A stretch of DNA of 64,000 nucleotides from the NCBI RefSeq assembly GCF_001469875.2, contig NZ_LOPW02000018.1:126239-190238 (forward strand). Reading direction: 5' to 3'. Source of the DNA: Haloferax marisrubri (lineage in GTDB: Archaea; Halobacteriota; Halobacteria; Halobacteriales; Haloferacaceae). The notes beneath the pieces were generated by a model, which saw only the letters and a list, made by a program, of their open reading frames with translations, did not search any database and was not told the origin of the DNA. The position numbers and the translations under genes are program-made. Of the stretch, positions 9,372 to 27,084 are shown piece after piece (position 1 is the first letter of the stretch; each line of letters opens with the position of its first letter).

Positions 9372-10400
9372 ATGTCTGACATCAGCTTCGAGTACAACGT
9401 CCCCGTCTTCGCCGGCGCGCCCGACGAGGGGACCGAGCCGACGCACCGCGACACCCCGGAGTACGAGGCGCTCGACTGGGAGACGACCAAGATGGGCGTC
9501 CAGAAGGCGGAGGAACTCGGCTTCGACGCGGTGTGGGCACCCGACCACCTGCTGTTGGGCCGCGACCACGCCGAGTACGAGTGCTGGACGCTGCTGTCGG
9601 CCATCGCCGGTTTCACCGAGGACATCAACCTCGGCTCGCTCGTCCTCTGTAACGACTACCGCAACCCGGCGCTCGTCGCCAAGATGGCGGCCACGCTCGA
9701 CGTGATTTCCGACGGGCGGCTGGAACTCGGCCTCGGCGCGGGCTGGCACGAACCGGAGTACGACGCCTACGGCTGGGAGTACCGCGACGGCTTCGAGCGC
9801 CTGATGCGGCTCGACGAGTCCATCCGCCTCATGAAGCGCATGTGGGCCGCCGGGACCGACGGCGCGAGCTTCGACGGGAAGCACTACCAGATAGAGGACG
9901 CTTACTGCGTCCCCGGGCCCGTACAGGACCCCCACCCGCCCATCCTCGTCGGCGGGCAGGGCGAGGAGGTCACGCTCAAACTCGTCGCCAAGCACGCCGA
10001 CGTGTGGAACACCGACGTGTTCAACGGCGACGTGGAGACGCTCGAACACAAAATCGGCGTCATCGAAGACCACTGCGAGACCGTCGGCCGCGACCCCGAC
10101 GAAATCGAGTACTCGTGGGACGGCCACGTCATCTGCACGCGCGACGAGGAGAAGTTCGACCGCCTGCTCGACCTGATGACGCCCATCCAGTTCGAAGAGG
10201 AGTATCAGGACCAAGCGCCCATCGTGACCGAGGAAGACGCTCGGGAGTACTTCATCATGGGAACGCCCGAGGAGTGCGCGGAGGCCATCGAGCGCCGCAT
10301 CGACGCGGGCGTGACGAAGTTCCAAGGCTGGTTCATCGACTTCCCCGACACCGACGGGATGGAACTGTTCGCGGACGAAGTCATCCCGCAGTTCAGCTGA
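9372..10400 (+). CDS. LLM-class (luciferase-like) flavin/F420-dependent oxidoreductase
   Basis: A 342-aa luciferase-like (bacterial luciferase superfamily) TIM-barrel protein. Motifs include ELGFDAVWAPDHLL, NLGSLVLCNDYRNPALVAKMAATLDVISDGRLELGLGAGWHEPEY in separate conserved blocks, PPILVGGQGEE and the C-terminal GTPEECAEAIE segment. Haloarchaeal members often use coenzyme F420, but the cofactor cannot be read from sequence. It begins two bases after the dehydratase stop, so it belongs to that operon. No LLM step is part of the known L-rhamnose diketo-hydrolase pathway, so its task is unknown; it could act on a methylated or otherwise modified sugar acid. A second LLM gene of similar type lies at 37113-38066. 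Confidence 0.75.
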   Translation: MSDISFEYNVPVFAGAPDEGTEPTHRDTPEYEALDWETTKMGVQKAEELGFDAVWAPDHLLLGRDHAEYECWTLLSAIAGFTEDINLGSLVLCNDYRNPALVAKMAATLDVISDGRLELGLGAGWHEPEYDAYGWEYRDGFERLMRLDESIRLMKRMWAAGTDGASFDGKHYQIEDAYCVPGPVQDPHPPILVGGQGEEVTLKLVAKHADVWNTDVFNGDVETLEHKIGVIEDHCETVGRDPDEIEYSWDGHVICTRDEEKFDRLLDLMTPIQFEEEYQDQAPIVTEEDAREYFIMGTPEECAEAIERRIDAGVTKFQGWFIDFPDTDGMELFADEVIPQFS

Positions 10401-10484
10401 ACTCGCAGGCCGCGTTCAACTATTTTCCCGCGGCGTCCCGGAGCTAACCACAGAAGTATTGGTGACGCGTAGTGGAGAAGGTGT

Positions 10485-11138
10485 ATGAAATACGCTGATA
10501 CGGTGGTGCGGGCCACGCGGTTGCTGGTACGCAATCCGTTCGCGGTCCTCCTCGTGAGCATCGCCACCACTGTTTCCATGGTGCCGCTCGTAAGCGGCGT
10601 CGCGCTCGGCGGGGTCGCGGGGGGTCTCGTCGGACTCTGGACATCCTCTATGCTACTCGGATTTGTCGCCGTCGGCGGGGCACGGCTGTTCGTCGTCGTC
10701 GTCGAGCGCGAGGTGTCTTTGGGTACGGGTTACTTCTGGAGCGGAATTCGCGCCGGGAAGCGGATGGCTCCAGTCATCGGCTTCGGTACGTTCGTCGTCG
10801 CGTTCGGTGCGCTCCTCCTCGCCTCGAATCCGCTCGACGGTATCGCGGGGATGAGCGTCGCGATGCTCGGCGTCTATCTCCTCTTGGCCTGGTACGTCCT
10901 CGTCATGTACTCGCTCACACTGTGGGCGTCTTCGGACCAGCCAGTCGACGTGAGAGACACCTTTGTCGGCGGCGGACGGCTCATCTTGGAGCGGCCGGTG
11001 TCGGCTGGTTGGCTCCTCGTCCAGACGGTCGGCTGGACGCTGCTCTCGATACCGCTTTTCGTCGCGCCGGTCCTCCTCCTCCCGGGATTCGTTCAACTCA
11101 TCGGGACGGCGATTATCACCCGCGCGATGGAGGAGTGA
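10485..11138 (+). CDS. Small polytopic membrane protein, possibly YesL/DUF624-like
   Basis: A 217-aa membrane protein with about five to six hydrophobic helices (roughly residues 20-55, 60-75, 95-115, 120-145, 180-210) and an ER/RE-rich loop. Size, the N-terminal amphipathic start followed by paired helices, and position directly before a CUT1 sugar transporter in a rhamnoside locus recall YesL (DUF624), which accompanies rhamnogalacturonan transporters in Bacillus. The sequence itself does not prove this family. A GTATTGG element about 28 bases upstream could serve as promoter. The function of DUF624 proteins is unknown, with a role in transporter assembly suggested. Confidence 0.5.
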   Translation: MKYADTVVRATRLLVRNPFAVLLVSIATTVSMVPLVSGVALGGVAGGLVGLWTSSMLLGFVAVGGARLFVVVVEREVSLGTGYFWSGIRAGKRMAPVIGFGTFVVAFGALLLASNPLDGIAGMSVAMLGVYLLLAWYVLVMYSLTLWASSDQPVDVRDTFVGGGRLILERPVSAGWLLVQTVGWTLLSIPLFVAPVLLLPGFVQLIGTAIITRAMEE

Positions 11139-11220
11139 ACGGACTCCGCGGTACCGCGGGTCGCACAGCGGGGACTGATCCTGTTAGTGACCACGAAGAA
11201 ATCGTTACTACATTTTAGAT

Positions 11221-11230
11221 AATTTTATAT
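11221..11230 (+). promoter_or_regulatory. TATA box of the sugar ABC transporter operon
   Basis: AATTTTATAT at 11221-11230 lies 25-34 bases before the ATG at 11255 and is one of the best TATA boxes in the window, fitting a highly expressed solute-binding protein with a leaderless transcript. Confidence 0.6.
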
Positions 11231-11254
11231 GCGGCCATCACATTAGCCTATACT

Positions 11255-12910
11255 ATGTCACACAGTAACAGCAATGGGGGCGGTGACAGCGGTGCAGGCA
11301 GTTCCCGTTCAGGCGGTAGGAAGCGACTGACTCGTCGTAACTGGATTAAAGCTGCAGGCGCTGCTGGCATCGCGGGACTCGCTGGGTGTGCTGGGGGCGG
11401 CGGCAGCAACGACGGAGGCGGTAGTGACTCCGGCGGCGAGGGCACGACCACCGGTGACTCGGACGACGTCACCACGATCGAACTCTGGCGCTGGCCGCAC
11501 TCGACGGAACCGTCGAATGCCGGCGAAGACGAGATTGTAAAGCTCTTCAACGAGGGCCCGGGCGCAGAACAGGGTATTCGAGTCAAGCAGGTGAAAAACC
11601 CGTTCGGAGACCACCAGACGAAGGTCAAGACGGCCATCGGGAGCAAGTCTGCGCCCGACATCGCCTGGACCTTCACCGAGCAGTACTACGACACCGCCGG
11701 GAAGGACCGAAGCACCATCGAATCAGAGGCACCGTACGTCTACATCGACGACTACGTCAGCGACGACTGGCTCGGTGACTTCTACGAGAAAGAACTGAGC
11801 GACCAGCGGGCGCAGTTCGGTGGCATCGTGGGCGCTCCGTTCGTCTCCGGGCTTCAGCCCGGGCTCATGTACCTGAACGTCGACGCGTGGGAGGCCGCGG
11901 GTCTGGGTGAGGTCCCCACTGATTCGTGGAGCTACGAGGAGTACCTCGAAGCCGTCGAAGCGATGCACGGCGTCGAAGCCAACGGTTCGACCGTCAGCGG
12001 AGTCGGTATCGGGCTCAAAGACGCCACGTCCTCCGAGTGGAGTAACTTCCCGGGCACCATCGGCGTCACCGCAGGAAGTCTCATCGGAAACGGCTACCGG
12101 CGTGAGGACGACAGCTACGCGCTGACGATGGCGTCCGACCCCGAACTCGAAGCGTGGAACGAGATGTTCGGAAAGCCGCTCGCGAACGGCTGGACGAACA
12201 ACCCGCTTTCGTACGACTACCTCGAAACGCAGGAGCCGTTCGTGGGCGGCCAGATCGGCCTGCTGCACCACGCCACGTTCTCTCGCGTCCAGTTCGGCCA
12301 AGAAGCAGACTTCAACTGGACGATCATCCCCTACCCGACCAAGGGTGGCAACGAGAACTACTCGGTGTACTCCGCGGGCCTCGGCGTGCTCGTCACCATG
12401 ACGGCGTTCAAAGAGGAAGTCGGTGGCAACCCCGAAGCGGCCGCCGAGTTCATCAAATTCCGCAACAACGCGCGGAACCAGTACCGGTGGTTCAACACCT
12501 CCTCGCAGGCGATTCCGAACAAGGGTGCCTACGAGCTGATGAACAGCGAGGGCGTTTCCGACTTCGTCGAGGAAACCGGTGGAAAGGACATTATGGACCG
12601 CGCGGACACCGCGTACTCCGAGTACGAGTCGGTTCGCGAGGCCATCAAGAGCCGGTACCCCGACATCAAGACGACCGAAGACGGCGCACCGGTGACCAAC
12701 GTCCCGACCGGTATCGCCAGCGGTCGAGTCGGCGAAGCGCTGGGCGGGATGCTGCAGCGACTCGCACAGAACGGCAATTCGAACCCCAAGGAGGCGTACA
12801 CGCAGGCTGAGGGTCAGTGGGCCGACCTCATCGTGCAGGCTGATGACACCGAGTTCGCCGAGGAGAGCCGCGGTTACAACAAGCCTGAGCCGAAAGCGGG
12901 TCCCATCTGA
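11255..12910 (+). CDS. Sugar ABC transporter substrate-binding lipoprotein (CUT1 type)
   Basis: A 551-aa extracellular binding protein. The N-terminus has a Tat-type motif (SGGRKRLTRRNWIK), a hydrophobic stretch and a lipobox ending LAGC (about residue 46), followed by a Gly/Ser/Asp-rich linker typical of haloarchaeal lipoproteins. The mature part has family 1 sugar-binding features (IELWRWPH, SAPDIAWTFTEQYY, a conserved GG-rich hinge). It is the first gene of a unit with two permeases downstream and would deliver oligosaccharides containing rhamnose or unsaturated uronate to them. At 551 aa it is longer than most CUT1 binding proteins (about 430), consistent with larger oligosaccharide ligands. 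Substrate is inferred from neighbours. Confidence 0.85.
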   Translation: MSHSNSNGGGDSGAGSSRSGGRKRLTRRNWIKAAGAAGIAGLAGCAGGGGSNDGGGSDSGGEGTTTGDSDDVTTIELWRWPHSTEPSNAGEDEIVKLFNEGPGAEQGIRVKQVKNPFGDHQTKVKTAIGSKSAPDIAWTFTEQYYDTAGKDRSTIESEAPYVYIDDYVSDDWLGDFYEKELSDQRAQFGGIVGAPFVSGLQPGLMYLNVDAWEAAGLGEVPTDSWSYEEYLEAVEAMHGVEANGSTVSGVGIGLKDATSSEWSNFPGTIGVTAGSLIGNGYRREDDSYALTMASDPELEAWNEMFGKPLANGWTNNPLSYDYLETQEPFVGGQIGLLHHATFSRVQFGQEADFNWTIIPYPTKGGNENYSVYSAGLGVLVTMTAFKEEVGGNPEAAAEFIKFRNNARNQYRWFNTSSQAIPNKGAYELMNSEGVSDFVEETGGKDIMDRADTAYSEYESVREAIKSRYPDIKTTEDGAPVTNVPTGIASGRVGEALGGMLQRLAQNGNSNPKEAYTQAEGQWADLIVQADDTEFAEESRGYNKPEPKAGPI

Positions 12911-12967
12911 GCGCCCCGTGAAATAAGGCTCACAATTTAATTAATTCGAACCACATCCTGTACTCAC

Positions 12968-13936
12968 ATGACATCAGATTCCGAGTCAGAATCGGCTATT
13001 TACGCTTCTGAGCGCTCTGACACGAGGTCGTTTAGCCTCGATTCTCTCAGCCTCAGTCAGCAGGAGTCCATCGAGGGATGGCTCTTCGTACTCCCGAAGC
13101 TCGCTATCCTACTGTTCGTTATCGGCTTCCCGATGGCGTTCGGTATCTACCTGAGCTTCACCGAATCGACGCTCCTGAACTTACCCGGCGAGTTCGTCGG
13201 ACTCGAGAACTACCAGTGGCTGGTGAACTATCCGGTCTGGTGGACGTCGGTGAAGAACGTGCTCATCATGAGCGCGGTGAAGATACCGACGAACATCTTC
13301 TTCTCGTTCACCGCGGCGCTACTGCTCAGAGAGAAACTGAAAGGCAGCAACCTCTACCGGATCGCCTTCATCGTCCCCGTCGCGGGGCCACCGGTTATCT
13401 GGGCGATCGTCTGGCGGCTCATGCTGTTCTCCAACGAGGGTGGGATAGCCAACGCGATTCTCCTCGAACTGGGTGCGATTAGCCAGTACATCCCGTTCCT
13501 GACTAACGTGACGTACGCGCTCCCGTCTGTCATCATGTCCCAGATATGGTCGTTCGGGCTCTCGATGCTCATCTACATGGCCGCGCTTTCGGGGCTTCCC
13601 TCGTCAGTTATGGAGTCCGCATCGATGGACGGCGCGAACAAGTACCAGAAGGTACGGTACATCATCTGGCCGCTGATGAAGCCGACGACGCTGTTCCTCG
13701 TCGTGATTCAGCTGATAGAAGTCACCAAAGTCGGATTCGCGTCCGTGTTCGTGATGACCGGCGGTGGCCCGCTGAACTCGACGATGGTACCGTCGTTCTT
13801 AGTGTACGAACTCGCGTTCCGGTACAACGAGTTCGGCCACGCGTCCGCGGTGGCAGTCGGGATGTTCCTCATCACCGCCTTCATCGCGCTGGTCCTCTAC
13901 AAACCCCTGCAGAGCAACGCGGAGTACTACCAATGA
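12968..13936 (+). CDS. Sugar ABC transporter permease (MalF/UgpA type)
   Basis: A 322-aa inner-membrane permease with a hydrophilic N-terminal tail of about 35 residues and six predicted helices. The cytoplasmic EAA loop reads SSVMESASMDGANKYQKVRYIIWPLMKP (in two halves, about residues 214-241) and couples to the ATPase; the FVGLENYQWL segment after helix 1 is typical of CUT1 permeases. An A/T-rich element (CAATTTAATTAATT) lies about 25-35 bases upstream, so some separate initiation is possible although it follows the binding protein by only 57 bases. It pairs with the next permease. Confidence 0.9.
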   Translation: MTSDSESESAIYASERSDTRSFSLDSLSLSQQESIEGWLFVLPKLAILLFVIGFPMAFGIYLSFTESTLLNLPGEFVGLENYQWLVNYPVWWTSVKNVLIMSAVKIPTNIFFSFTAALLLREKLKGSNLYRIAFIVPVAGPPVIWAIVWRLMLFSNEGGIANAILLELGAISQYIPFLTNVTYALPSVIMSQIWSFGLSMLIYMAALSGLPSSVMESASMDGANKYQKVRYIIWPLMKPTTLFLVVIQLIEVTKVGFASVFVMTGGGPLNSTMVPSFLVYELAFRYNEFGHASAVAVGMFLITAFIALVLYKPLQSNAEYYQ

Positions 13937-13980
13937 ACACCACAGCCATTCACGCGTCCGCATCGGAGGTGCGTAACTGA
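13933..13980 (+). other. 15-codon mini-ORF translationally linked to both flanking permease genes
   Basis: An ATG at 13933 overlaps the first permease's TGA (ATGA), and this mini-ORF's own TGA at 13978-13980 overlaps the second permease's ATG (TGATG). The 15-residue peptide would be MNTTAIHASASEVRN. It may be a real coupling device that hands ribosomes from one permease to the next, or a chance result of short intergenic spacing. Confidence 0.3.
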
Positions 13981-14861
13981 TGAGCGGAACGCACGACACG
14001 ATATTCGAAGAACCGGACACGACGCAGGGCCGCCTCGAGCGACTGGGCGCGCACGCGTACCTGATCGTCATCGCGCTCCTCACCGCGGGACCGTACCTGA
14101 TCATGGTCTCCATCTCGCTCATGGGTAACGGTTGGAACCCGGTCGTTCCGCCGAAATTAATCCCTGAAGCGGTGAGCCTGCAGAACTACATCGACGTCTG
14201 GGCCGGACAGACCGCGCTCCTGGACCAGCCGTTCTCCGGGTTCTTCATCAACTCGCTCATCTACGCGGTCGGCGCGACGCTGACCGTGCTCGTGGTCGAC
14301 ACGCTCGCCGGCTACGCCTTCGCGCGGCTCGAATTCGCCGGGAGAGACATCAGTTTCCTCGCTGTCATCGCGACGCTGATGATCTCGCCGATGATTCTGT
14401 TCGTCCCGCTCTACACGTGGTTCAACCAGTTCGGACTGGTAAACACCAGAATCGGTGTCATCCTGCCGCACACGTTCACCGGCTTCGGGGTCTTCCTGAT
14501 GCGTCAGTTCATCAAGACTCTTCCATCCGACCTCGAGGACGCGGCCCTCATCGACGGCTGTTCCCGGTTCGGCGTGTTCTGGCGCGTCGTCATCCCGATG
14601 ATGAAACCGGCGCTCGTGACGCTCGGCATCATCACGTTCATCACCGTCTGGAACTCGTTCCTCTGGCCGCTCGTCTTGGCCCGGGACTCCGCCCTGTACA
14701 ACCTTCCCGTCGCACTCGGGTTCTTCCAGGGTCGGACGAGCACGCTGTGGGCACCGCTGATGGCGGCCACGGCGATTACACTCGTCCCGATGGTCATCCT
14801 GTTCATCTCGATGCAGAAGTACTACGTCAGGGGCTTCACCATCGGCGGCATCAAGGGGTAA
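13980..14861 (+). CDS. Sugar ABC transporter permease (MalG/UgpE type)
   Basis: A 293-aa permease, the second half of the membrane channel. It has six hydrophobic helices and the EAA loop DLEDAALIDGCSRFGVFWRV with the following IPMMKPAL (about residues 183-210). The PEAVSLQNYIDVW segment after helix 1 is typical of MalG-type subunits. Its start overlaps the stop of a 15-codon mini-ORF (TGATG). It completes the plus-strand transporter unit; the ATPase is encoded convergently at 15217-16380. Confidence 0.9.
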   Translation: MSGTHDTIFEEPDTTQGRLERLGAHAYLIVIALLTAGPYLIMVSISLMGNGWNPVVPPKLIPEAVSLQNYIDVWAGQTALLDQPFSGFFINSLIYAVGATLTVLVVDTLAGYAFARLEFAGRDISFLAVIATLMISPMILFVPLYTWFNQFGLVNTRIGVILPHTFTGFGVFLMRQFIKTLPSDLEDAALIDGCSRFGVFWRVVIPMMKPALVTLGIITFITVWNSFLWPLVLARDSALYNLPVALGFFQGRTSTLWAPLMAATAITLVPMVILFISMQKYYVRGFTIGGIKG

Positions 14862-15216
14862 CACCCGACTAGCCGCTCGACTTTCTACTCTTTCGCGGTG
14901 TTACGCCTTCTTGCTCCCAGATCGTCGCGACGGAATCCGTCTGAGCGACTCGCCTTTTGACGCTCTCCGACTCCGCCCGAGACAGTCTGCTCTATTCGCT
15001 TCCGTCCGCACGTTCGAGGCGTGTCTTGTCCGCCAACTGAGTCGGTGGCTCGCTTCTGGCCGCACCGTCCCGACTGTGTTCACGGCGGTTCTATCTTCTA
15101 TGGAGACTTCGAGTTGACTTCGAGAAGTAGTGCGCCCCGGCTCGGGGCGGTAGACGACTAGTAATCCAGAGACAAGCGAGTTACTCCGTCGTTTCGTTGA
15201 AAATTAGCGTCCGGTT
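14862..15216. other. 355-base gap between convergent transporter genes
   Basis: I see no gene or clear repeat. Short frames on both strands encode Arg/Ser-rich peptides unlike neighbouring proteins. The first 50 bases contain short T-runs (TTTCTACTCTTT near 14880) that could end the permease transcript. Confidence 0.5.
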
Positions 15217-16380
15217 TCAGGCTTCCGTGGTCTCGGAGGCCGTCAGATCTTCTGCTGGGTACTCTTCATCGGTGGGCTCCCCTCGGGTGACAATCGAGTT
15301 CCCGGTTTCCCTGTCGAAGACGTGAATCTCCGCGGCGGGCAGCGCGATTGTGACTTGGTCACCGGGTTTAATCTCGGTGTTGCGGTCGACGCTTATCGTG
15401 ACTTCCGAACCGCCGAACTCGGTGTAGAGATACGTCACGTCGCCCAGCGGTTCGACGACGTTGACCTCGACGCTGAACGAGTCCGGATGCTCAACTGCCT
15501 CTTCGCCGCTCAGGATTTCCTCGGGGCGGATTCCAAGTACGAACTCCGAGTTGTGACCTGCGAGCGCGCTCTCGATCGACTCGGGAAGTGTCACGGCGAA
15601 GTCGTCGGTACTGAGTTCGCCGCCGCCCAGCGCGACGTCGAAGAAGTTCATGCTGGGTGAGCCGATGAAGCCGGCGACGAACTGGTTTGCGGGCTCTTGG
15701 TAACACTCGGCGGGCGTACCGATCTGCTGGAGTTCGCCGTCGTTGAGAATGGCGATGCGGTCTCCCATGGTCATCGCCTCGGTCTGGTCGTGCGTGACGT
15801 AGATGGTCGTCACGTCGAGGTCCTGCTGGAGGTCTTGGAGCTCCGTCCGCATCGTCGTCCGGAGCTTCGCGTCGAGGTTCGAAAGCGGCTCGTCCATCAG
15901 GAACACTTCGGGGTCCCGGACGATGGCGCGGCCGAGGGCGACGCGCTGTTGTTGGCCGCCGGAGAGCTCGCCCGGCTTCTTTTCGAGCAGGCCTTCGATG
16001 CCCATCAGCTCCGACGCGTTGCGGACGCGCTCGTCGATCTCGTCGGCCGGCATCTCAGTCGTCATCTTGAGGCCGAACGACATGTTCTCGCGAGCGGTCA
16101 TGTGTGGGTACAGCGCGTACGACTGGAACACCATCGCCATGTTCCGGTCCTTCGGTTTCCGCTGGGTGACCGGCGCACCGTCGAGGACGATGTCGCCGCT
16201 CGTCGGCTGTTCTAACCCTGCGATCATGCGGAGTGTGGTAGACTTCCCGCAGCCCGATGGTCCGACGAGGATGAGGAATTCACCGTCTTCGATTTCGATA
16301 TCGAGGTCGTCGACGGCGACAACGTGGTTCTCACCCTCACCGAACTCTTTCGTGATATGCTCTAGTGCAAGCTGTCCCAT
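15217..16380 (-). CDS. Sugar ABC transporter ATP-binding protein (MalK/UgpC/MsmX type)
   Basis: A 387-aa ATPase that would power the permeases at 12968-14861. Walker A is GPSGCGKSTT (about residues 39-48), the Q-loop VFQSYALYPH, the signature LSGGQQQRVALGRA, Walker B VFLMDEPLSNLDA and the switch His in YVTHDQTEA. The C-terminal 150 residues form the TOBE/OB regulatory region (LGIRPEEI, VVEPLGDVTYLYTE) typical of CUT1 ATPases, and the extreme C-terminus is acidic. It is transcribed toward the permeases and divergently from the GH78 gene, which ties importer and rhamnosidase to one control region. Confidence 0.9.
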   Translation of the reverse strand: MGQLALEHITKEFGEGENHVVAVDDLDIEIEDGEFLILVGPSGCGKSTTLRMIAGLEQPTSGDIVLDGAPVTQRKPKDRNMAMVFQSYALYPHMTARENMSFGLKMTTEMPADEIDERVRNASELMGIEGLLEKKPGELSGGQQQRVALGRAIVRDPEVFLMDEPLSNLDAKLRTTMRTELQDLQQDLDVTTIYVTHDQTEAMTMGDRIAILNDGELQQIGTPAECYQEPANQFVAGFIGSPSMNFFDVALGGGELSTDDFAVTLPESIESALAGHNSEFVLGIRPEEILSGEEAVEHPDSFSVEVNVVEPLGDVTYLYTEFGGSEVTISVDRNTEIKPGDQVTIALPAAEIHVFDRETGNSIVTRGEPTDEEYPAEDLTASETTEA

Positions 16381-16517
16381 GGATACCTGTGTATGTCTGC
16401 CATGGACATTAATGCTTTTCCCTATTACGATGATACGAGTTAATTTTCGGAACCCCGAGAAACCGGCGCGTGGTGTCGGTGCAAAGACTTAATTCGAATC
16501 CAACGAACTCGGTAGGC
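16381..16517. promoter_or_regulatory. Divergent promoter region between the transporter ATPase and the GH78 rhamnosidase
   Basis: ATTAAT at 16408-16413 lies 28-33 bases from the ATPase start (minus strand), and ACTTAATT at 16487-16494 lies 24-31 bases from the GH78 ATG at 16518. An inverted repeat, ATGTC (16393-16397) and GACAT (16405-16409), sits between the ATPase box and its start codon and could be an operator. Confidence 0.5.
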
Positions 16518-19500
16518 ATGGCTGAACGTTCCGCGAGAGAACTCCACTCTCCTCCGAGTCGTCTTCGCGTCGAGTACGAACCGTCCCCGGCCAACGTTGA
16601 CCCGACCGGCCAGCCGCGGTTCTCTTGGCGCGTCGAAACCGACCGCAGGGGCGCGAGCCAGCACGCGTATCGCGTCGTCGTCGCTCACGACCGCGTCGAC
16701 GCGGAAGACGGGAACGGGACGATGTGGGACTCCGGCCGGGTCGATTCGTCGCAGTCGACGAACGTCCGCTATCGGGGCCCTCGGCTCTCTCCCGACGACA
16801 CATACTACTGGTCGGTGAAGCTCTGGACGGACACAGGAGAGACCGAGTGGGCCGGAGCAGCGCAGTTTTCGACCGCGCTCGACCCCGAAAGCTGGCGCGG
16901 CGAGTGGATCAGTCACCAACCGGACGGCGGGGACTCGAACGGGTGGCGGAGCCAGTGGCGAGACGACGACTGGGACGGCGAGGAGTGGGTTCAGGTCGAC
17001 CTCGGTTCGGAGCGCTCGGTGGACTCCATCGAACTCCACCCGGCGGAACCGATCGATATCATTCGGATGCCGGACGACACGGCCGTCACTCAATCGTGGC
17101 GCGAGAACCCCCTCGCGGCCTTCGGCTTCCCCGACGCGTATCGAATCGAGGTCGCTGCCGACCGCGACTTCGAGGACTCGACGGTCGTGGCGGACGTTAC
17201 TGACACTACTGAAGTCGTGACCGACGGACCGGGCCGAAACGCCGGTAACGAGACCGTCTCGACGGCTTCGCACGGCGGCCTGAACGTCGAGGGACGGTAC
17301 GTCAGAGTCACGGCAACGGACCTCTGTACCGTCGGCCCGTCGTCTGAACCCATCTTCCGAGACGAGGTCAAAGAGCGACAGTCACAGCGCGTCGAGACGT
17401 GGCAGTGTTTCGCGCTCGCGGCCCTCGGGGTTCGAGACTCGTCTGGGACTGACCTCGCTCGCGGGTGTCCCGTCGACGCGTCATCGTCTGCTGACTCCGA
17501 TACGTGGGGTCGGAGCCACCTCGTCAACGGTCACTCGACCTCTCGAACCGCGTCGTCCTCCCCACTCTTGCGGACCGAATTCGCTCTCGACGCGCCCGTC
17601 GAGTCGGCGCAGATTCACGTCGCCGCCGTCGGCTACGGTGAACTCCACGTCAACGGCGACCGCATCGGCGACCGCGAACTCGACCCCGCGTGGACGGACT
17701 ACGAACGCCGCGTCCTCTACTCGAGTTACGACATCTCCGACGAACTCACCGAGGGGAAGAACGCCATCGGACTGTGGCTCGGCCGCGGGTGGTTCTCGAA
17801 GACGCACGCGTACTGGCTGAGCGACGGGTCGCCGAGAGGTCGCATCACACTCTCCGTCGAACTCGAAGACGGTACGCAACGCCGGCTCGCGACGGACGAA
17901 AACTGGCGTGCGTCATCGAGCCCGATCGTAGAGAACGACCTTTACAACGGCGAGAGATACGATGCACGACAGGAACCGTCGGGCTGGCAATCTCCTGGGT
18001 TCGACGACTCCGAGTGGGACTGCGCCGCCGCGGTTCGCCCCCCAGGTGGGACGCTCCGACCGGAGCGAATCAACCCGATGGGCGTCGTCGACACGCTGGA
18101 CGTGGAGGCGGTTCACGACCACCCCGAGGGCCCCATTCTCGACTTCGGACAGAACCTCACCGGCTGGTTGGAACTCACGGTTCGCGACCCCGACGCCGGC
18201 GACGAAATCGAGCTTCACCACGCCGAAGCCCTCACCGAAGACGGGAGCCTCTCCACGACTGACCTCCGAACCGCCGACGCGACTGACGTCTACGTCGCCC
18301 GTGGGGACGCCACGGAGACGTACGAACCGCGCTTCACGTACCACGGCTTCCGATACGCGCAGGTCGTCGGGTACCCCGGCGACTTCGACCCGGCAGACGT
18401 GACGGCGAAAGTCGTCCACACGGCCATGGACCGACGGGGCTCGTTCGCCTGCTCGAACGAGGACCTGAACCAACTCCAGCACAACTCCGTGTGGGGGCTC
18501 CGCGGGAACACGCACTCGATTCCCGAGGACTGTCCGCAGCGCGACGAGCGATTCGGCTGGACCGGTGACGCCCACATCTCGACCCGGTCGCTGTTGTTCA
18601 ACTTCGACGCCGTTCGGTTCGACGAGAAGTGGATTCGCGACCACGAGGACGTGGCGTCTCCCATGGGATACGTCCCGGACGTCATTCCGAACAAGGACCA
18701 AGAGGACCCCGCGGACCCGACGTGGTCGATTACCCGCGTGATGATTCCGTGGTATCTGTACCTCCACGACGGCGACGAGGGCATCCTCCGCGAGCAGTAC
18801 GAAGGGATGCGCGACTACGTCGATTACTGGTACGGCGTGACCGAAGACGGAATCGTCCCCGACGACTACGGGAAGTTCGGCGACTGGCTCGCGTTCGAAA
18901 ACACCGACGGCAGGCGCGGCCTCCCGCACGACCTGTACAACACGGCGTTCCTCTACCAGACGACCGACACCTTCGCGAAGATAGCCGAGACTATCGGCGT
19001 CGACGGTGACGCGACTCGGTACCGAGACCGAGCCGACCAAATCGCCGACCGATTCAACGACCGGTTCTTCGACGCGGACACCGGCGTCTACGGGCCGGGG
19101 ACACAGTCTTCGTACGCCGTTCCGCTGTTCCTCGGGATGATTCCCGAGGAGTCGGTCGAGACGGTCGCGGCCAACCTCGCCGAGAAGGTTCGAGCGGACG
19201 GTGGAAAGCTCAAGACTGGGTTCCTCGGGACGCGTCCCATGATTCACACCCTCGCGCACCACGGCTACGCGGACCTCGCCTACGAGGTCGTGAGCCAACC
19301 GGAACAGCCCGGCTGGGTGTACATGGCGCGGAAGGGCGCGACGACGATGTGGGAGCGCTGGAACTCCGATGAGAGCGTCGGCTCCGGCATGAACTCGCTG
19401 AACCACTCTCCGTTTACGCACGTCTCCGAGTTCTTCTACGAGGTCCTCGCAGGCATTCGAATCGAAGAGACGCCCGTCTCGGAGCACGTGACAATCGAAC

Positions 19501-19796
19501 CCGCGCTCGTCGACGATCTCGATTGGGTGTCCGCGAGCGTCGAGACGGGCACCGGCGAGCTCTCCGTCGAGTGGGAACGAGCCGACGACGGTCCGGGATA
19601 CGCGCTCGCTGTGACGATTCCGTGGAACGGAAGCGCGACGGTTCGGCTCCCGGCCGCAGCGGACGCGACGGTGACGGAGTCCGGTGAAGACGTCGCACAG
19701 CGCGCACCGGATGGCATCCGAAGCGTCGAACGCGACGGTGACGAACTCGTCTTCGAGGTGGGCGCTGGCGGCTACTCGTTCTCGGTCAGCGAATAG
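16518..19796 (+). CDS. GH78-family alpha-L-rhamnosidase
   Basis: A 1092-aa glycoside hydrolase that releases terminal L-rhamnose. It has the GH78 layout: an N-terminal fibronectin-like domain (PSRLRVEYEPSP and PRFSWRV, residues 10-45), jelly-roll domains (about 260-560), the (alpha/alpha)6 catalytic barrel and a C-terminal beta-sandwich (about 990-1090). The catalytic signature DCPQRDERFGWTGDA (about residues 671-685) is exactly placed, with WERWNS and HSPFTHVSEFFYEVLAGI following. No signal peptide is present, so it acts in the cytoplasm on imported oligosaccharides. ATG 16518 is chosen because the TATA-like box lies 24-31 bases upstream; an ATG at 16470 would lie before it. The protein is somewhat longer than typical GH78 enzymes, with extra sequence at about residues 125-290. 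Confidence 0.92.
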   Translation: MAERSARELHSPPSRLRVEYEPSPANVDPTGQPRFSWRVETDRRGASQHAYRVVVAHDRVDAEDGNGTMWDSGRVDSSQSTNVRYRGPRLSPDDTYYWSVKLWTDTGETEWAGAAQFSTALDPESWRGEWISHQPDGGDSNGWRSQWRDDDWDGEEWVQVDLGSERSVDSIELHPAEPIDIIRMPDDTAVTQSWRENPLAAFGFPDAYRIEVAADRDFEDSTVVADVTDTTEVVTDGPGRNAGNETVSTASHGGLNVEGRYVRVTATDLCTVGPSSEPIFRDEVKERQSQRVETWQCFALAALGVRDSSGTDLARGCPVDASSSADSDTWGRSHLVNGHSTSRTASSSPLLRTEFALDAPVESAQIHVAAVGYGELHVNGDRIGDRELDPAWTDYERRVLYSSYDISDELTEGKNAIGLWLGRGWFSKTHAYWLSDGSPRGRITLSVELEDGTQRRLATDENWRASSSPIVENDLYNGERYDARQEPSGWQSPGFDDSEWDCAAAVRPPGGTLRPERINPMGVVDTLDVEAVHDHPEGPILDFGQNLTGWLELTVRDPDAGDEIELHHAEALTEDGSLSTTDLRTADATDVYVARGDATETYEPRFTYHGFRYAQVVGYPGDFDPADVTAKVVHTAMDRRGSFACSNEDLNQLQHNSVWGLRGNTHSIPEDCPQRDERFGWTGDAHISTRSLLFNFDAVRFDEKWIRDHEDVASPMGYVPDVIPNKDQEDPADPTWSITRVMIPWYLYLHDGDEGILREQYEGMRDYVDYWYGVTEDGIVPDDYGKFGDWLAFENTDGRRGLPHDLYNTAFLYQTTDTFAKIAETIGVDGDATRYRDRADQIADRFNDRFFDADTGVYGPGTQSSYAVPLFLGMIPEESVETVAANLAEKVRADGGKLKTGFLGTRPMIHTLAHHGYADLAYEVVSQPEQPGWVYMARKGATTMWERWNSDESVGSGMNSLNHSPFTHVSEFFYEVLAGIRIEETPVSEHVTIEPALVDDLDWVSASVETGTGELSVEWERADDGPGYALAVTIPWNGSATVRLPAAADATVTESGEDVAQRAPDGIRSVERDGDELVFEVGAGGYSFSVSE

Positions 19797-20173
19797 CCTG
19801 CTCGCACCTGGCGCTTTTCTTTCGTATCTCTCGGATTCTCCCGGGAGGCGGACCTGGTTCCAACCGCTGACGGATGTGGTTCGTGCGTCCGTCTACGGGG
19901 TGAGTCGCGACCGAAGGGGTTCACTTCTTGATGCGGTTTCCTTCTATCTTTGAGTCCAGTGCTCTCGATGACGATTGCAGGGAACCATAGCCTAGGACCG
20001 GTGATCGATTTTGACTCGAAAACGGTTGTCGTCGCTCGTGGTACTGGTTTCTGCATGCTCACACCGGCCGACGCGTGGATTCGAATCTGGTTCGTCGGGC
20101 GCGCCCGTTTCGCGACCATCGACTTCCGGCCATAGCGGAAAGACATTTGAGGGATGAGGATTCATAACCAACT
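19797..20173. other. 377-base gap with a possible terminator and the IclR promoter
   Basis: No gene is seen. A T-rich TTTTCTTTC run at 19814-19822 just after the GH78 stop may end its transcript. ACATTTGA at 20143-20150 lies 24-31 bases before the next ATG (20174) and is the likely TATA box of that gene. The sequence between is featureless to me. Confidence 0.45.
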
Positions 20174-20932
20174 ATGGCGAAGGACGTTCCGGTCAACGCG
20201 GTCAAAATCTCGCTCGAACTCGTCGACCTCCTGCGGGAACTCGACGGGGCGGGCGTCTCGGAGGTAGCCAAGCGGCTCGATAAGCCGACCAGCACGATTC
20301 ACGACCACCTGCGGACGCTGGAGCAACAGGAGTACCTCGTCAAGGAGGGCGACACGTACTACGTCAGCACGCGGTTCCTCCAGTTGGGCGCTCACGCGCG
20401 GTCCCGCCAGAAGGTGTTCAAAATCGCCCGTCCCGAGATAAACGAGCTCGCGCAGGTGACCGGCGAGCACGCGAACCTGATGATAGAGGAACACGGCGTC
20501 GGCGTCTTCCTGTACCGGTCTCGGGGGCCCGACGCCGTCCGGCTGGACACCCATTCGGGGATGCGTGTTCCTCTGCAGACGACGGCCCTCGGAAAGTCTA
20601 TCATGGCGAACCGGCCGCGAGAGGAAGTCGAGCGAATCCTCGACCGCCACGGGTTAGAGGCGGTGACGGACCGCTCCATCACGGACCGCGAGGAGCTGTT
20701 CGACGTATTGGAGGAGGTCCGCGAGCGCGGCTACTCGTACGACGACGAAGAGCGCGTCAAGGGCATGCGCTGTGTGGCCGCGCCGATACTCAACGAGGAC
20801 GACTACGCCATCGCCGCCGTGAGCGTCTCGGGGCCGAAAAGCCGGATGCGCGAGGAGCGGTTCACCGAGGAACTGCCGAACCAGATTCTCAAGAGCGCGA
20901 ACGTCATCGAGGTGAACCTGACGTACTCGTAG
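20174..20932 (+). CDS. IclR-family transcriptional regulator, candidate regulator of rhamnose catabolism
   Basis: A 252-aa IclR protein: winged HTH at residues 8-65 (VSEVAKRLDKPTSTIHDHLRTLEQQEYL) and an effector-binding domain at about 80-250 (TALGKSIMANRPREE, RERGYSYDDEERVKGMRCVAAPI). It lies directly upstream of, and on the same strand as, the FAH hydrolase and SDR genes. From memory, an IclR-type protein controls L-rhamnose catabolism and uptake in H. volcanii, and this gene is the best positional candidate for that role. It may bind the motif shared by the alcohol dehydrogenase and FAH-hydrolase promoters. The effector is unknown, plausibly a pathway intermediate. Confidence 0.85.
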   Translation: MAKDVPVNAVKISLELVDLLRELDGAGVSEVAKRLDKPTSTIHDHLRTLEQQEYLVKEGDTYYVSTRFLQLGAHARSRQKVFKIARPEINELAQVTGEHANLMIEEHGVGVFLYRSRGPDAVRLDTHSGMRVPLQTTALGKSIMANRPREEVERILDRHGLEAVTDRSITDREELFDVLEEVRERGYSYDDEERVKGMRCVAAPILNEDDYAIAAVSVSGPKSRMREERFTEELPNQILKSANVIEVNLTYS

Positions 20933-23509: not shown

Positions 23510-24133
23510 ATGGGTACCGACCAAAGCACGAACCGTCGCCTAAGCAAGGTAGAGCGGGTCATCGAGACGTACGACTTAGACGGGTTCGGCGAGCAACTCG
23601 CCGACCGGTGGACGGCACCCGAGGACAGCGACAGCCTCCGGGACCTCGCGGACCTGATGAACGAGAAGGTCCTCGACGCCGCGCTCCGAAAGGCGGGTGA
23701 GGACGTTCTCGAAGGGGAGGTCGAGAACCTGTACACGCTTCTCACCGGCGACGAGACCACGGAGGGGATGCGCGTTCAGGCGAAGAACACGCTCCAGTCC
23801 CGCGGCGTCGACGTCGACCAACTGCTCTCAGATTTCGTCTCCCACCAGGCGGTCTACACCTACCTGACCGATATTCGCGGCGTCTCGAAGGATTCCTCGT
23901 CCGGAAACAGAATCGACAACGTCATCGAGTCCATCCAGCGACTCCGCGGCCGACTGGTCGCGGTCATCGAACAGAGCCTGAGTTCGCTCCGCAACACGAG
24001 TAAACTCCGACTCGGCGACTTCGACGTCCTCGTGGACACGCAGGTGTACTGCCGCGACTGCGGGACGCAGTACGAGGTCATCGAACTGCTCCGACGCGGC
24101 GGGTGCGACTGCGACGAGAGCGCATCGAACTAA
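23510..24133 (+). CDS. rdfA: Rod-determining factor RdfA-family protein
   Basis: A 207-aa haloarchaeal protein I recognise as RdfA-like. RdfA was reported in H. volcanii as needed for rod-shaped cells. The N-terminal two thirds are helical and acidic (conserved segments LSKVERVIETYDLDGFGEQLADRWTA in part, SLRDLADLMNEKVLDAAL, VENLYTLLTGDETTEGMRVQAKNTL, VDVDQLLSDFVSHQAVYTYLT). The C-terminus has a Cys cluster, C181-x2-C184 and C199-x-C201, that probably binds zinc. Such genes typically sit beside an SMC-like gene, as here (79 bases downstream). Haloarchaea often carry several rdfA paralogues, so this copy need not be the shape-determining one. Confidence 0.82.
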   Translation: MGTDQSTNRRLSKVERVIETYDLDGFGEQLADRWTAPEDSDSLRDLADLMNEKVLDAALRKAGEDVLEGEVENLYTLLTGDETTEGMRVQAKNTLQSRGVDVDQLLSDFVSHQAVYTYLTDIRGVSKDSSSGNRIDNVIESIQRLRGRLVAVIEQSLSSLRNTSKLRLGDFDVLVDTQVYCRDCGTQYEVIELLRRGGCDCDESASN

Positions 24134-24180
24134 GCAATTACATAATTAGAACTGTCACATTCTGTTCGATTCAACGGGTG

Positions 24181-24190
24181 ATTTTATATT
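24181..24190 (+). promoter_or_regulatory. TATA box of the SMC-like gene
   Basis: ATTTTATATT at 24181-24190 lies 23-32 bases before ATG 24213. It makes the in-frame ATG at 24189 unlikely, since that codon overlaps the box, and shows the SMC-like gene can be expressed apart from rdfA. Confidence 0.6.
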
Positions 24191-24212
24191 GATGTACCTG
24201 TTGAGTCAAGGT

Positions 24213-26162
24213 ATGAGCTCAGAACAAGTGTCAAAATCTAAAGTCCACCTTTCGGTCGAGAACATCGGTGGCATCGACAACCTGTCAACGTCGTTCGAGC
24301 CGGGTGTGACGGTCCTGGCGGGTCGAAACGCCACGAACCGAACGTCGCTCTTGCGGTCCATCATGGCCGCCCACGGGAGCGACGACGTGGCGCTCAAGGG
24401 CGACGCCGACGAGGGGTCGGTCGAACTCACCATCGGCGACGAGACGTACACCCGGACGTTCGAGCGGCAGGGCGACACGGTCATCTCCGGCGGGAATCCG
24501 GTCCTCGACGACCCGGACCTCGCGGACCTGTTCGCCTTCCTGCTCGAGACGAACGACGCCCGACAGGCGGTCGCTCGCGGCGACGACCTCCGCGACCTCA
24601 TCATGCGCCCGGTGGACGTCGAATCCATCAACGAGCAGATCGAGTCGCTCCAGCAGGAGAAACGCGACATCGCCGACGAGCTATCGACGCTCAGCAACCT
24701 CTCGGACCGCCTGCCGCAACTCGAACGCCGGCGGACGAAACTCGAAGACCAAATCGAGGAGAAGGAAGACGAACTCGCCGAGAAAGAACAGGAAGTCGAG
24801 GAGTACGACGCCAGCGTCAGCGAGCGGCAGGAAGTCGAGAGCGAACTCGAATCCAAACTCGGTGACCTCCGGAGCAAGCGCCGCGACATCAACGACGTGG
24901 ACCGCCGCATCGAGACGGAGAAACAGAGCCTCGACGCCCTCGAATCCGAGGAGGACGAACTGGAGGACGACGCCGAGGACCTCCCCGAGGTCGCCGGCGG
25001 CAAGATAGACGAAATCGAGTCCGAAATCAGCCGCCTCCGGACGCGCCGCCAGCAGATTCAGTCCACCGTCAACGAGCTTCAGTCCGTGATTCAGTTCAAC
25101 GAGGAGATGCTCTCGGGCACCTCCTCGGACGTCGTGGACGCGCTCCGCGACGCCGACGACTCCGGCGGGAGCGTCACCGACCAACTGCTCGGCGACGACC
25201 AGGTCGTCTGCTGGACGTGCGGCTCCGAGGTCGACAAGTCCGAAATCGAGGGCACGCTCGAACGCCTCCGGACGCTCCGCGAGGAGAAACTCGAGGACAA
25301 CCGCGCACACCGCGAGCAGCTCTCCGAACTCGAAGACGAGAAGTCCACCTACGAGCGCCGCCAGCGCGAGCGCGACCGTATCGAGCGCCGCCTCTCCGAA
25401 ATCGAAAGCGAGCGCGAGACGCGCCAAGAGCGCATCGAGGACCTCAAGTCCGACCGCTCGGACCTCGAAGACGAAATCGACTCGCTCGAACAGACCGTCG
25501 ACGAACTCGAAAGCGAGGAACACGGCGACCTGCTCGACCTCCACCGCGAGGCGAACCAGCTCGAATACGACCTCGGTCGCCTCCGCAGCGACCTCGAAGA
25601 CGTCGAGGACGAAATCGCGGACATCGAGCGCAAACTCGACGAGCGCGACGAACTCGAAGCGGCCCGCGAGGACATCGAGGACGAACTCGCGGAGCTTCGG
25701 ACGCGCATCAAGCGCCTCGAATCCGAGGCCGTCGAGGAGTTCAACACCCACATGGACGACGTGCTCGACGTGCTCGAGTACGACAACCTCGACCGCATCT
25801 GGATCGAGCGCACGGAAAAGCGGGTTCGGGAGGGCCGAAAGAAGGTCAAGAAGTCGGTGTTCGACCTCCACGTCATCCGGACGAACGAAGACGGCGTGAG
25901 CTACGAGGACTCCGTCGCCCACCTCTCTGAGTCCGAGCGCGAGGTGACCGGCCTCGTGTTCGCGCTCGCGGGCTACCTCATCCACGACGTCTACGAGACG
26001 GTTCCGTTCATGGTCCTCGACTCCCTCGAGGCCATCGACTCGAACCGCATCTCGCGGCTCGTGGACTACTTCGCGGACTACGCCGACTTCCTCGCCGTCG
26101 CCCTCCTCGAAGAGGACGCGCAGGCGGTCGACAGTTCCTACCCGCGCTACTCGCCGGCGTAA
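24213..26162 (+). CDS. Archaea-specific SMC/Rad50-like protein with zinc hook and degenerate P-loop
   Basis: A 649-aa SMC-family-like protein, about the size of Sph-type haloarchaeal SMC relatives and shorter than true SMC (about 1200 aa) or Rad50. N- and C-terminal head segments flank two long coiled-coil arms (about residues 130-325 and 345-560, rich in Glu, Leu, Arg). A Rad50-type hook C333-W-T-C336 sits at the exact centre. The P-loop reads GRNATNRTS (37-45) and lacks the canonical GxGK[ST]; the signature region is LSESE (571-575); Walker B is MVLDSLE (600-606), with Ser where the catalytic Glu is expected. As I recall, the GRNATNRTS form is conserved in this family, so it is probably not decay. 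Function with RdfA is not established. Confidence 0.85.
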   Translation: MSSEQVSKSKVHLSVENIGGIDNLSTSFEPGVTVLAGRNATNRTSLLRSIMAAHGSDDVALKGDADEGSVELTIGDETYTRTFERQGDTVISGGNPVLDDPDLADLFAFLLETNDARQAVARGDDLRDLIMRPVDVESINEQIESLQQEKRDIADELSTLSNLSDRLPQLERRRTKLEDQIEEKEDELAEKEQEVEEYDASVSERQEVESELESKLGDLRSKRRDINDVDRRIETEKQSLDALESEEDELEDDAEDLPEVAGGKIDEIESEISRLRTRRQQIQSTVNELQSVIQFNEEMLSGTSSDVVDALRDADDSGGSVTDQLLGDDQVVCWTCGSEVDKSEIEGTLERLRTLREEKLEDNRAHREQLSELEDEKSTYERRQRERDRIERRLSEIESERETRQERIEDLKSDRSDLEDEIDSLEQTVDELESEEHGDLLDLHREANQLEYDLGRLRSDLEDVEDEIADIERKLDERDELEAAREDIEDELAELRTRIKRLESEAVEEFNTHMDDVLDVLEYDNLDRIWIERTEKRVREGRKKVKKSVFDLHVIRTNEDGVSYEDSVAHLSESEREVTGLVFALAGYLIHDVYETVPFMVLDSLEAIDSNRISRLVDYFADYADFLAVALLEEDAQAVDSSYPRYSPA

Positions 26163-26292: not shown

Positions 26293-27084
26293 TCAGGAGA
26301 GCGCGATGCTCAGTTCGAGTTCCTCGGCGATGCCGAGGAGGACCTCGGTGAGACGGTCGAACTGCTCGCCTTTCATCCGGTTGGAGGGACCGGCGACGCT
26401 CAGCGCGCCGAACACGCCGCCGTCAGGTCCCAACACGGGGGCTCCGACGGCGCGGACGCCGCTAATCTGCTCTTCGACGTTTAGCGCGTAGCCGCGCTCT
26501 CTGATTTCGGCGAGTTCGTCGAACAGCGCCTCCTCGTCGTGAATCGTCTGTTCCGTCTCCTTCGGAAGTCCGACCCGGTCGATGATTTCGCGGACCCGCT
26601 CTGCCGGCATGTGGGCGAGGATGGCCTTCCCGCTCGCCGTCGAGTGGAGGTAGACGCGCTTGCCCACGGTCGATTGCGTCCAGACGCCGTGTTTTCCGGG
26701 TGCGGTGTGGACGTACACGCCCCGTCCGTGCTCTTCGACGGTGAAAATCGAGCGCCGTTCCGACTCCTCGGAGAGGACGTTGGTGTAGTGTTCGGCTTTC
26801 CCGAATTTTCGTTTCCGCGTTCGGACGAAGTTCCCGAGACCGAGGAAGCGAAGCCCGAGATGGTAGGTCTCGCCCTCTTTAACCACGTATTCCTGGGATT
26901 CGAGAGTCGTCACGTGGGTGTGTGCGGTGCTCGGTGCGATGTCGAGTTCGCGGGCGATCTCGGTCACGCCGGCACCGTCGCGTTCCCTGAGTAATTCGAT
27001 GATTCTGAGGGTTGTGACCGTTGTTTTGAGCGAGCGGTCGTTCGCGTTTTCGGTCATTACCTGCGGGTCGTCACCATCGCACAT
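26293..27084 (-). CDS. IclR-family transcriptional regulator of the second catabolic locus
   Basis: A 263-aa IclR protein: winged HTH at about residues 20-80 (VTEIARELDIAPSTAHTHVTTLESQEYVV) and effector domain at about 95-260 (ASGKAILAHMPAERV, RERGYALNVEEQISGVRAVGAPV, SVAGPSNRM). Two starts are possible: ATG 27084, used here, or ATG 27057 nine codons later, which would give a more typical N-terminus. It is divergent from the M20 amidohydrolase across a 336-base gap rich in GAATC/GATTC inverted repeats, so it probably controls the genes to the right. Effector unknown. Confidence 0.84.
   Translation of the reverse strand: MCDGDDPQVMTENANDRSLKTTVTTLRIIELLRERDGAGVTEIARELDIAPSTAHTHVTTLESQEYVVKEGETYHLGLRFLGLGNFVRTRKRKFGKAEHYTNVLSEESERRSIFTVEEHGRGVYVHTAPGKHGVWTQSTVGKRVYLHSTASGKAILAHMPAERVREIIDRVGLPKETEQTIHDEEALFDELAEIRERGYALNVEEQISGVRAVGAPVLGPDGGVFGALSVAGPSNRMKGEQFDRLTEVLLGIAEELELSIALS

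Follow-up and report, generated by a model that had tools for sequence, protein, structure and literature searches.

Organization of the rdfA-sph locus

The window, a 64,000-nucleotide stretch of Haloferax marisrubri DNA, carries rdfA and, 79 nt after its stop codon, sph, which encodes an archaea-specific SMC-related protein (ASRP; Table 1). The Pfam match of RdfA (cut-off of 27 bits) aligned residues 12–202 to model positions 1–195, and each of the four clustered cysteines was 93–100% conserved among relatives. The open reading frame, the family match and these conserved residues confirmed the 207-aa protein with a cysteine cluster that an earlier, sequence-only reading of this DNA had described. 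Sph scored 709.9 bits against the ASRP model (NF045487, curated equivalog cut-off of 300), with model positions 1–593 covered.

Besides the sph start codon ATG at 24213, two other in-frame starts lie upstream, a TTG at 24189 and an ATG at 24192. The TATA box that had been attributed to sph is present as TTTTATAT, ~27 nt 5′ of ATG 24213. Such a spacing fits a leaderless sph transcript, which would originate from the gene's own promoter.

Table 1. Features of the rdfA-sph locus, with window coordinates
Feature	Position	Strand	Basis
rdfA, rod-determining factor A, 207 aa	23510..24133	+	ORF; Pfam PF21811, 249.5 bits; AlphaFold pLDDT 93.5
RdfA cysteine cluster, C181-x2-C184-x14-C199-x-C201	24050..24112	+	sequence, conservation
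TATA-like box before sph, TTTTATAT	24180..24187 (about)	+	sequence; promoter use putative
sph (ASRP), 649 aa	24213..26162	+	NCBIfam NF045487, head fold
Walker A position, GRNATNRTS, residues 37–45; Gly→Asn, Lys→Arg	24321..24347	+	motif reading, alignment
Zinc hook, C333-W-T-C336	25209..25220	+	both Cys 100% conserved
ABC signature position, LSESEREV (canonical LSGGQ)	25923..25946	+	motif reading, alignment
Walker B, FMVLDSLEAID, residues 599–609; Ser604 replaces catalytic Glu, Glu606 conserved	26007..26039	+	motif reading, alignment
IclR-family regulator, convergent with sph	26293..27084	-	Pfam PF01614/PF09339; neighbour survey

Predicted structures and family assignment

The RdfA model was mainly helical, with a zinc-ribbon-like cysteine cluster at the C-terminus. 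A sequence search found no relative of solved structure, the fold search against the PDB gave no useful match (best Foldseek E-value of 0.65), and the best hit of a VIA fold search was an uninformative set of P450 helices (Z of 5.0). Thus, neither a kleisin-like nor a DNA-binding role could be read from the fold.

The Sph model (pLDDT 89.4) presented a head-coil-zinc hook-coil-head layout, with long helices flanking the CxxC hook. Its head was modelled as a Rad50/SMC fold (Z of 21.5 and rmsd of 3.3 over 309 residues to Rad50; Z of about 20–21.5 among Rad50/SbcC and SMC). The zinc hook, the altered P-loop and the LDSLE Walker B had all been read in the sequence alone and were found precisely as described. 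Since the hook cysteines, R43, S604 and E606 were near-invariant in relatives and the head model was of the Rad50/SMC type, these motifs are not a product of chance. Although the CxxC hook is shared with Rad50, Sph fell far under the Rad50/SbcC and SMC family cut-offs, with a best NCBIfam Rad50 score of 58.9 bits vs. 700 that places it outside Rad50, and it lacks the canonical Walker residues.

In a quick ASRP tree with some long branches, the window Sph fell within the clade of haloarchaeal Sph proteins, which had the methanogen ASRPs as its sister group (SH-aLRT of 99 for the Halobacteria node and likewise for the node joining it to the methanogens). By its NF045487 match, its layout and its position in the Sph clade, it resembles the ASRP family of Yoshinaga et al. 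2022 (PMC9389158), which brings together Sph of Halobacteria and coalescin/ClsN of Sulfolobus.

RdfA and Sph are paired across haloarchaea

The adjacency of rdfA and sph across haloarchaea was reported by Schiller et al. 2024 (PMC10869688), who named RdfA and found the two side by side for 42 of 54 RdfA and 42 of 50 SMC-like genes in 24 genomes. In our survey, RdfA adjoined the ASRP at 158 of 191 distinct loci, 12 of which came from non-haloarchaeal genomes, and at all 40 Haloferax loci (15 genomes). Adjacency is therefore common and not rare, and the two-gene module of the sequence-only reading stands. About 17% of the surveyed ASRPs had no RdfA inside the flank examined. Whereas no consensus flanking genes were described for ASRPs in PMC9389158, RdfA is here the rule in Halobacteria. 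Among 145 Halobacteria genomes, 123 had both families and 20 had neither, with RdfA alone in two and ASRP alone in none.

The gene order varied among the 158 adjacent pairs (98 RdfA-first, 28 Sph-first, 16 convergent and 16 divergent). At least 21 orientation changes were placed on the tree with adjacency retained, which is more than an inherited operon alone would predict. The distances between RdfA proteins and those between their Sph partners correlated at 0.92 (85 pairs from 40 multi-pair genomes); swapping partners within each genome, repeated 2000 times, gave 0.38 on average and never more than 0.63. This shows that the pairs remain together and, by itself, would be no proof of contact; co-divergence and adjacency are also expected of two linked genes that are inherited or transferred together. 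Some RdfA genes were solitary, with no ASRP nearby, and 15 such loci shared no conserved alternative partner. A search for natural RdfA-Sph fusions returned none.

The ATP site of haloarchaeal Sph is non-canonical and conserved

In the SMC superfamily, replacement of the P-loop Lys by Arg combined with loss of the catalytic Glu normally abolishes hydrolysis, and Arg sometimes substitutes for this Lys in binding. The window Sph has neither the Walker A GxxxxGK[ST] nor the Glu after the Walker B Asp that characterize a competent SMC/ABC-type ATPase. The same holds for most of its clade: Arg occupied the Walker A Lys position in 195 of 210 distinct haloarchaeal ASRPs, and the Walker B Glu was found in none of the 209 in which the region was read (194 carried Ser, the others Ala, Gly or Arg). 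The odd P-loop noticed in the window is hence the usual form among haloarchaeal homologues, and a canonical Walker A is not. Across 100 relatives sharing <75% identity, conservation reached 100% for R43, S604 and E606 and 98% for N42, with N39, T44, S45, D603 and LSESE likewise near-invariant. Given that few positions of the protein are as conserved as the altered ones, the site is a maintained variant, not one in decay.

The sister ASRPs of three non-haloarchaeal genomes keep both GK[ST] and DE. One of them (L048), with GKTS, lies on a 164-kb plasmid of Methanohalobium evestigatum, and its public record annotates an adjacent RdfA; at the other two loci (L055 and L057), an RdfA-like gene scored 26.3 and 22.9 bits, respectively, vs. 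the Pfam cut-off of 27. In all three cases the RdfA-family gene is found directly downstream of the canonical-head ASRP. This contrasts with a 2024 paper in which Sph proteins are confined to haloarchaea. The presence of RdfA genes next to methanogen ASRPs implies that the two families were partners before the motifs were lost, or that the partnership was transferred between these groups. Three weak outgroup matches (L047, L050 and L051), with LSGGE and a score below the ASRP cut-off, were not counted as ASRPs. RdfA-family genes were also seen in two more non-haloarchaeal genomes, with no ASRP nearby (L186:1529-2113, 54 bits; L187:6276-6968, 47 bits).

A smaller haloarchaeal ASRP clade has kept GK and carries Gly or Arg at the Glu position. 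The simplest order of events would start with the RdfA partnership, followed by loss of the Glu and then by the Lys to Arg change, with Lys returning later in small NK/DA groups. PMC9389158 mentions the Walker A and B motifs and does not remark on the Lys/Glu loss in the haloarchaeal clade. We have found no mention of this clade-wide loss in the literature searched, which left out the earliest Sph papers and thus makes priority uncertain.

IclR regulators are the commonest third neighbour

In the window, an IclR gene lies 130 bp downstream of the pair and a second one (20174-20932) about 2.6 kb upstream. An IclR gene adjoined 60 of the 191 surveyed loci (about 31%; 55 genomes), more often than any other third neighbour. 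The genomes carried 0 to 22 IclR genes each, and the observed frequency is far above the chance adjacency, which we estimated to be at most about 2% from 22 IclR genes in a 3.4-Mb genome. In the 6-kb flanks of 37 loci, six of which represent one Haloferax locus, IclR density was 177 per Mb within the first kb, and no IclR gene lay beyond 4 kb. The adjoining regulators were on either side and either strand and came from many IclR branches, which points to repeated association or to a shared genomic niche. A dedicated IclR clade was looked for and not found (9 label changes vs. 15.8 when shuffled, although few non-adjoining regulators were sampled and high scorers were over-represented among them). 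The IclR gene next to about 31% of the pairs and the clade-wide conserved non-canonical head go beyond the published work read here.

The window pair differs from the presumed sph3-type pair of the same genome

The genome carries two rdfA-sph pairs, that of the window (contig C18) and another on contig C10. The C10-type pair was present in 15 of 15 Haloferax genomes examined. It is presumed to be the sph3-type orthologue, because an adjoining HalOD1 gene matches the published rdfA-sph3-ddfA locus. The window pair has IclR as adjoining gene and no HalOD1, and is a paralogue; it shares with rdfA-sph3 of Haloferax volcanii (HVO_2174-HVO_2175) the same two families side by side and differs from it in lacking ddfA. 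The ddfA-like HalOD1 gene beside the C10 pair (L270:8536-8904, + strand) is an open frame with no ATG at its start, as reported for H. volcanii ddfA.

The window pair probably resides on a secondary replicon, as suggested by a window-type pair on a 322-kb contig of a relative with a three-contig assembly (G077), by a relative at 80.8% identity on a 114-kb plasmid of H. gibbonsii, and by the two Orc1/Cdc6 genes of contig C18. The plasmid linkage proposed earlier held in part: many pairs are on plasmids, with 115 plasmid records carrying an ASRP, and many others are on chromosomes. In six relatives the pair and its flanks aligned at 92–99%, indicating a settled locus and not a recent insert; Sph itself was 97–100% identical in six Haloferax relatives. 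The ten neighbours scanned included genes for IclR, an FAA hydrolase, an SDR, an M20 peptidase, a creatininase and a peptide ABC transporter. Farther upstream, window positions 10400-20116 hold a cassette with a sugar ABC transporter and an alpha-L-rhamnosidase (GH78, 16470-19796); it is missing from this site in six Haloferax relatives, whose sequence jumps from window position 10400 to about 20116.

Proposed function of the RdfA-Sph pair

The sequence-only reading had taken a joint function of the two genes to be undescribed, which was wrong, since both the two-gene module and its role in shape are already published (PMC10869688, PMC11276520). Deletion of either rdfA or sph3 renders H. volcanii disk-only and non-motile, and thus both genes are needed for rods (PMC10869688). 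Cells deleted for sph2 stay rods, the reverse of Δsph3 (PMC11276520). A 2026 paper (PMC13286277) states that Sph3 maintains the disk (plate) shape, which is the opposite of the disk-only Δsph3 of PMC10869688 and PMC11276520.

We favour, as the probable explanation, that the window pair is a paralogue of the haloarchaeal RdfA-Sph rod-shape module, with Sph serving as a scaffold whose head is non-hydrolysing and RdfA as its dedicated partner. Dimerisation of Sph would rest on the zinc hook and the coiled coils. The head would do without the usual ATP hydrolysis, either binding nucleotide without turnover or using none, and Sph would hence be a static tether or scaffold and not a motor. RdfA would engage or regulate Sph. 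Paralogous pairs may differ in effect; given the opposite phenotypes of the sph2 and sph3 deletions, the plasmid-type window pair probably tunes a shape/motility switch from its own promoter.

With the hook and coils retained, a static dimeric scaffold would be the plainest reading and would fit the shape phenotype as well as the case of Arcadin-4 of Thermoproteales, an SMC-superfamily protein linked to cell shape and not to chromosomes. Arcadin-4 differs in forming a separate clade nested in Rad50 (PMC9389158), and the window Sph scored 23 bits vs. its cut-off of 860. Scaffolding by Sph would then be ATP-independent. If the head is indeed unable to hydrolyse ATP, an entire branch of the SMC superfamily, needed for rods in an archaeon amenable to genetics, works without the cycle considered to define SMC proteins.

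Extended to the whole clade, we propose tentatively, and with less confidence, that haloarchaeal Sph is an actively conserved non-hydrolysing (pseudo-ATPase) SMC branch that arose after the RdfA partnership, that it forms with RdfA a nucleotide-independent or ATP-locked shape scaffold, and that the recurrent IclR neighbours couple shape to carbon source.

Alternatively, Sph could be a working SMC-type ATPase acting on DNA with a shifted site, in which Arg43 contacts the phosphate and Glu606 or another residue serves as base. We consider this unlikely. Some ATPase activity would be possible with the Glu606 carboxylate and an Arg in place of the Lys, the site is not decaying and the head fold is Rad50/SMC-like. 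In H. volcanii, each of the four sph deletions lowers survival in a gene-conversion assay and the sph2 sph4 double deletion was not obtainable, so that all four genes matter for gene conversion (PMC11276520); this points to a DNA role and counts against a pure scaffold. However, Glu606 aligns with a D-loop residue, and not with the catalytic Glu, in the methanogen sister sequence DELTYLD, and the haloarchaeal GK subclade has no Glu606 (LLDGLGGLA).

It is similarly doubtful that the pair is mainly a chromosome or plasmid maintenance factor, with the shape change being secondary to nucleoid organisation. Its membership of the SMC superfamily, the plasmid-borne ASRPs and the gene-conversion effects would agree with such a role, as would the ASRP relative ClsN, which organises Sulfolobus chromosomes (PMC9389158), and the cell-cycle regulation of Sph1 protein and transcript in H. 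salinarum. Yet the rdfA and sph3 deletions grow without defect (PMC10869688), the H. volcanii smc deletion lacks the gene-conversion phenotype (PMC11276520), SMC and Rad50 are also present in haloarchaea, and many pairs are chromosomal.

The suggested link to anti-phage defence, as an SMC-like module of the Lamassu or Wadjet/Jet class, is highly improbable and found no backing: the PADLOC matches to LmuB/JetC models reflect mainly coiled-coil similarity, the ten neighbours include no nuclease or kleisin partner of the Lamassu or Wadjet kind and are IclR, catabolic and transport genes, RdfA has no phage match, the pair occurs at conserved sites in most genomes, and the known phenotype is shape.

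The pair is thus real, correctly described and mostly known, and its conserved clade-wide non-canonical head is the part deserving biochemistry. For this, the phylogeny provides a natural test series, from the methanogen GK/DE heads through the haloarchaeal GK heads without Glu to the NR/DS heads.
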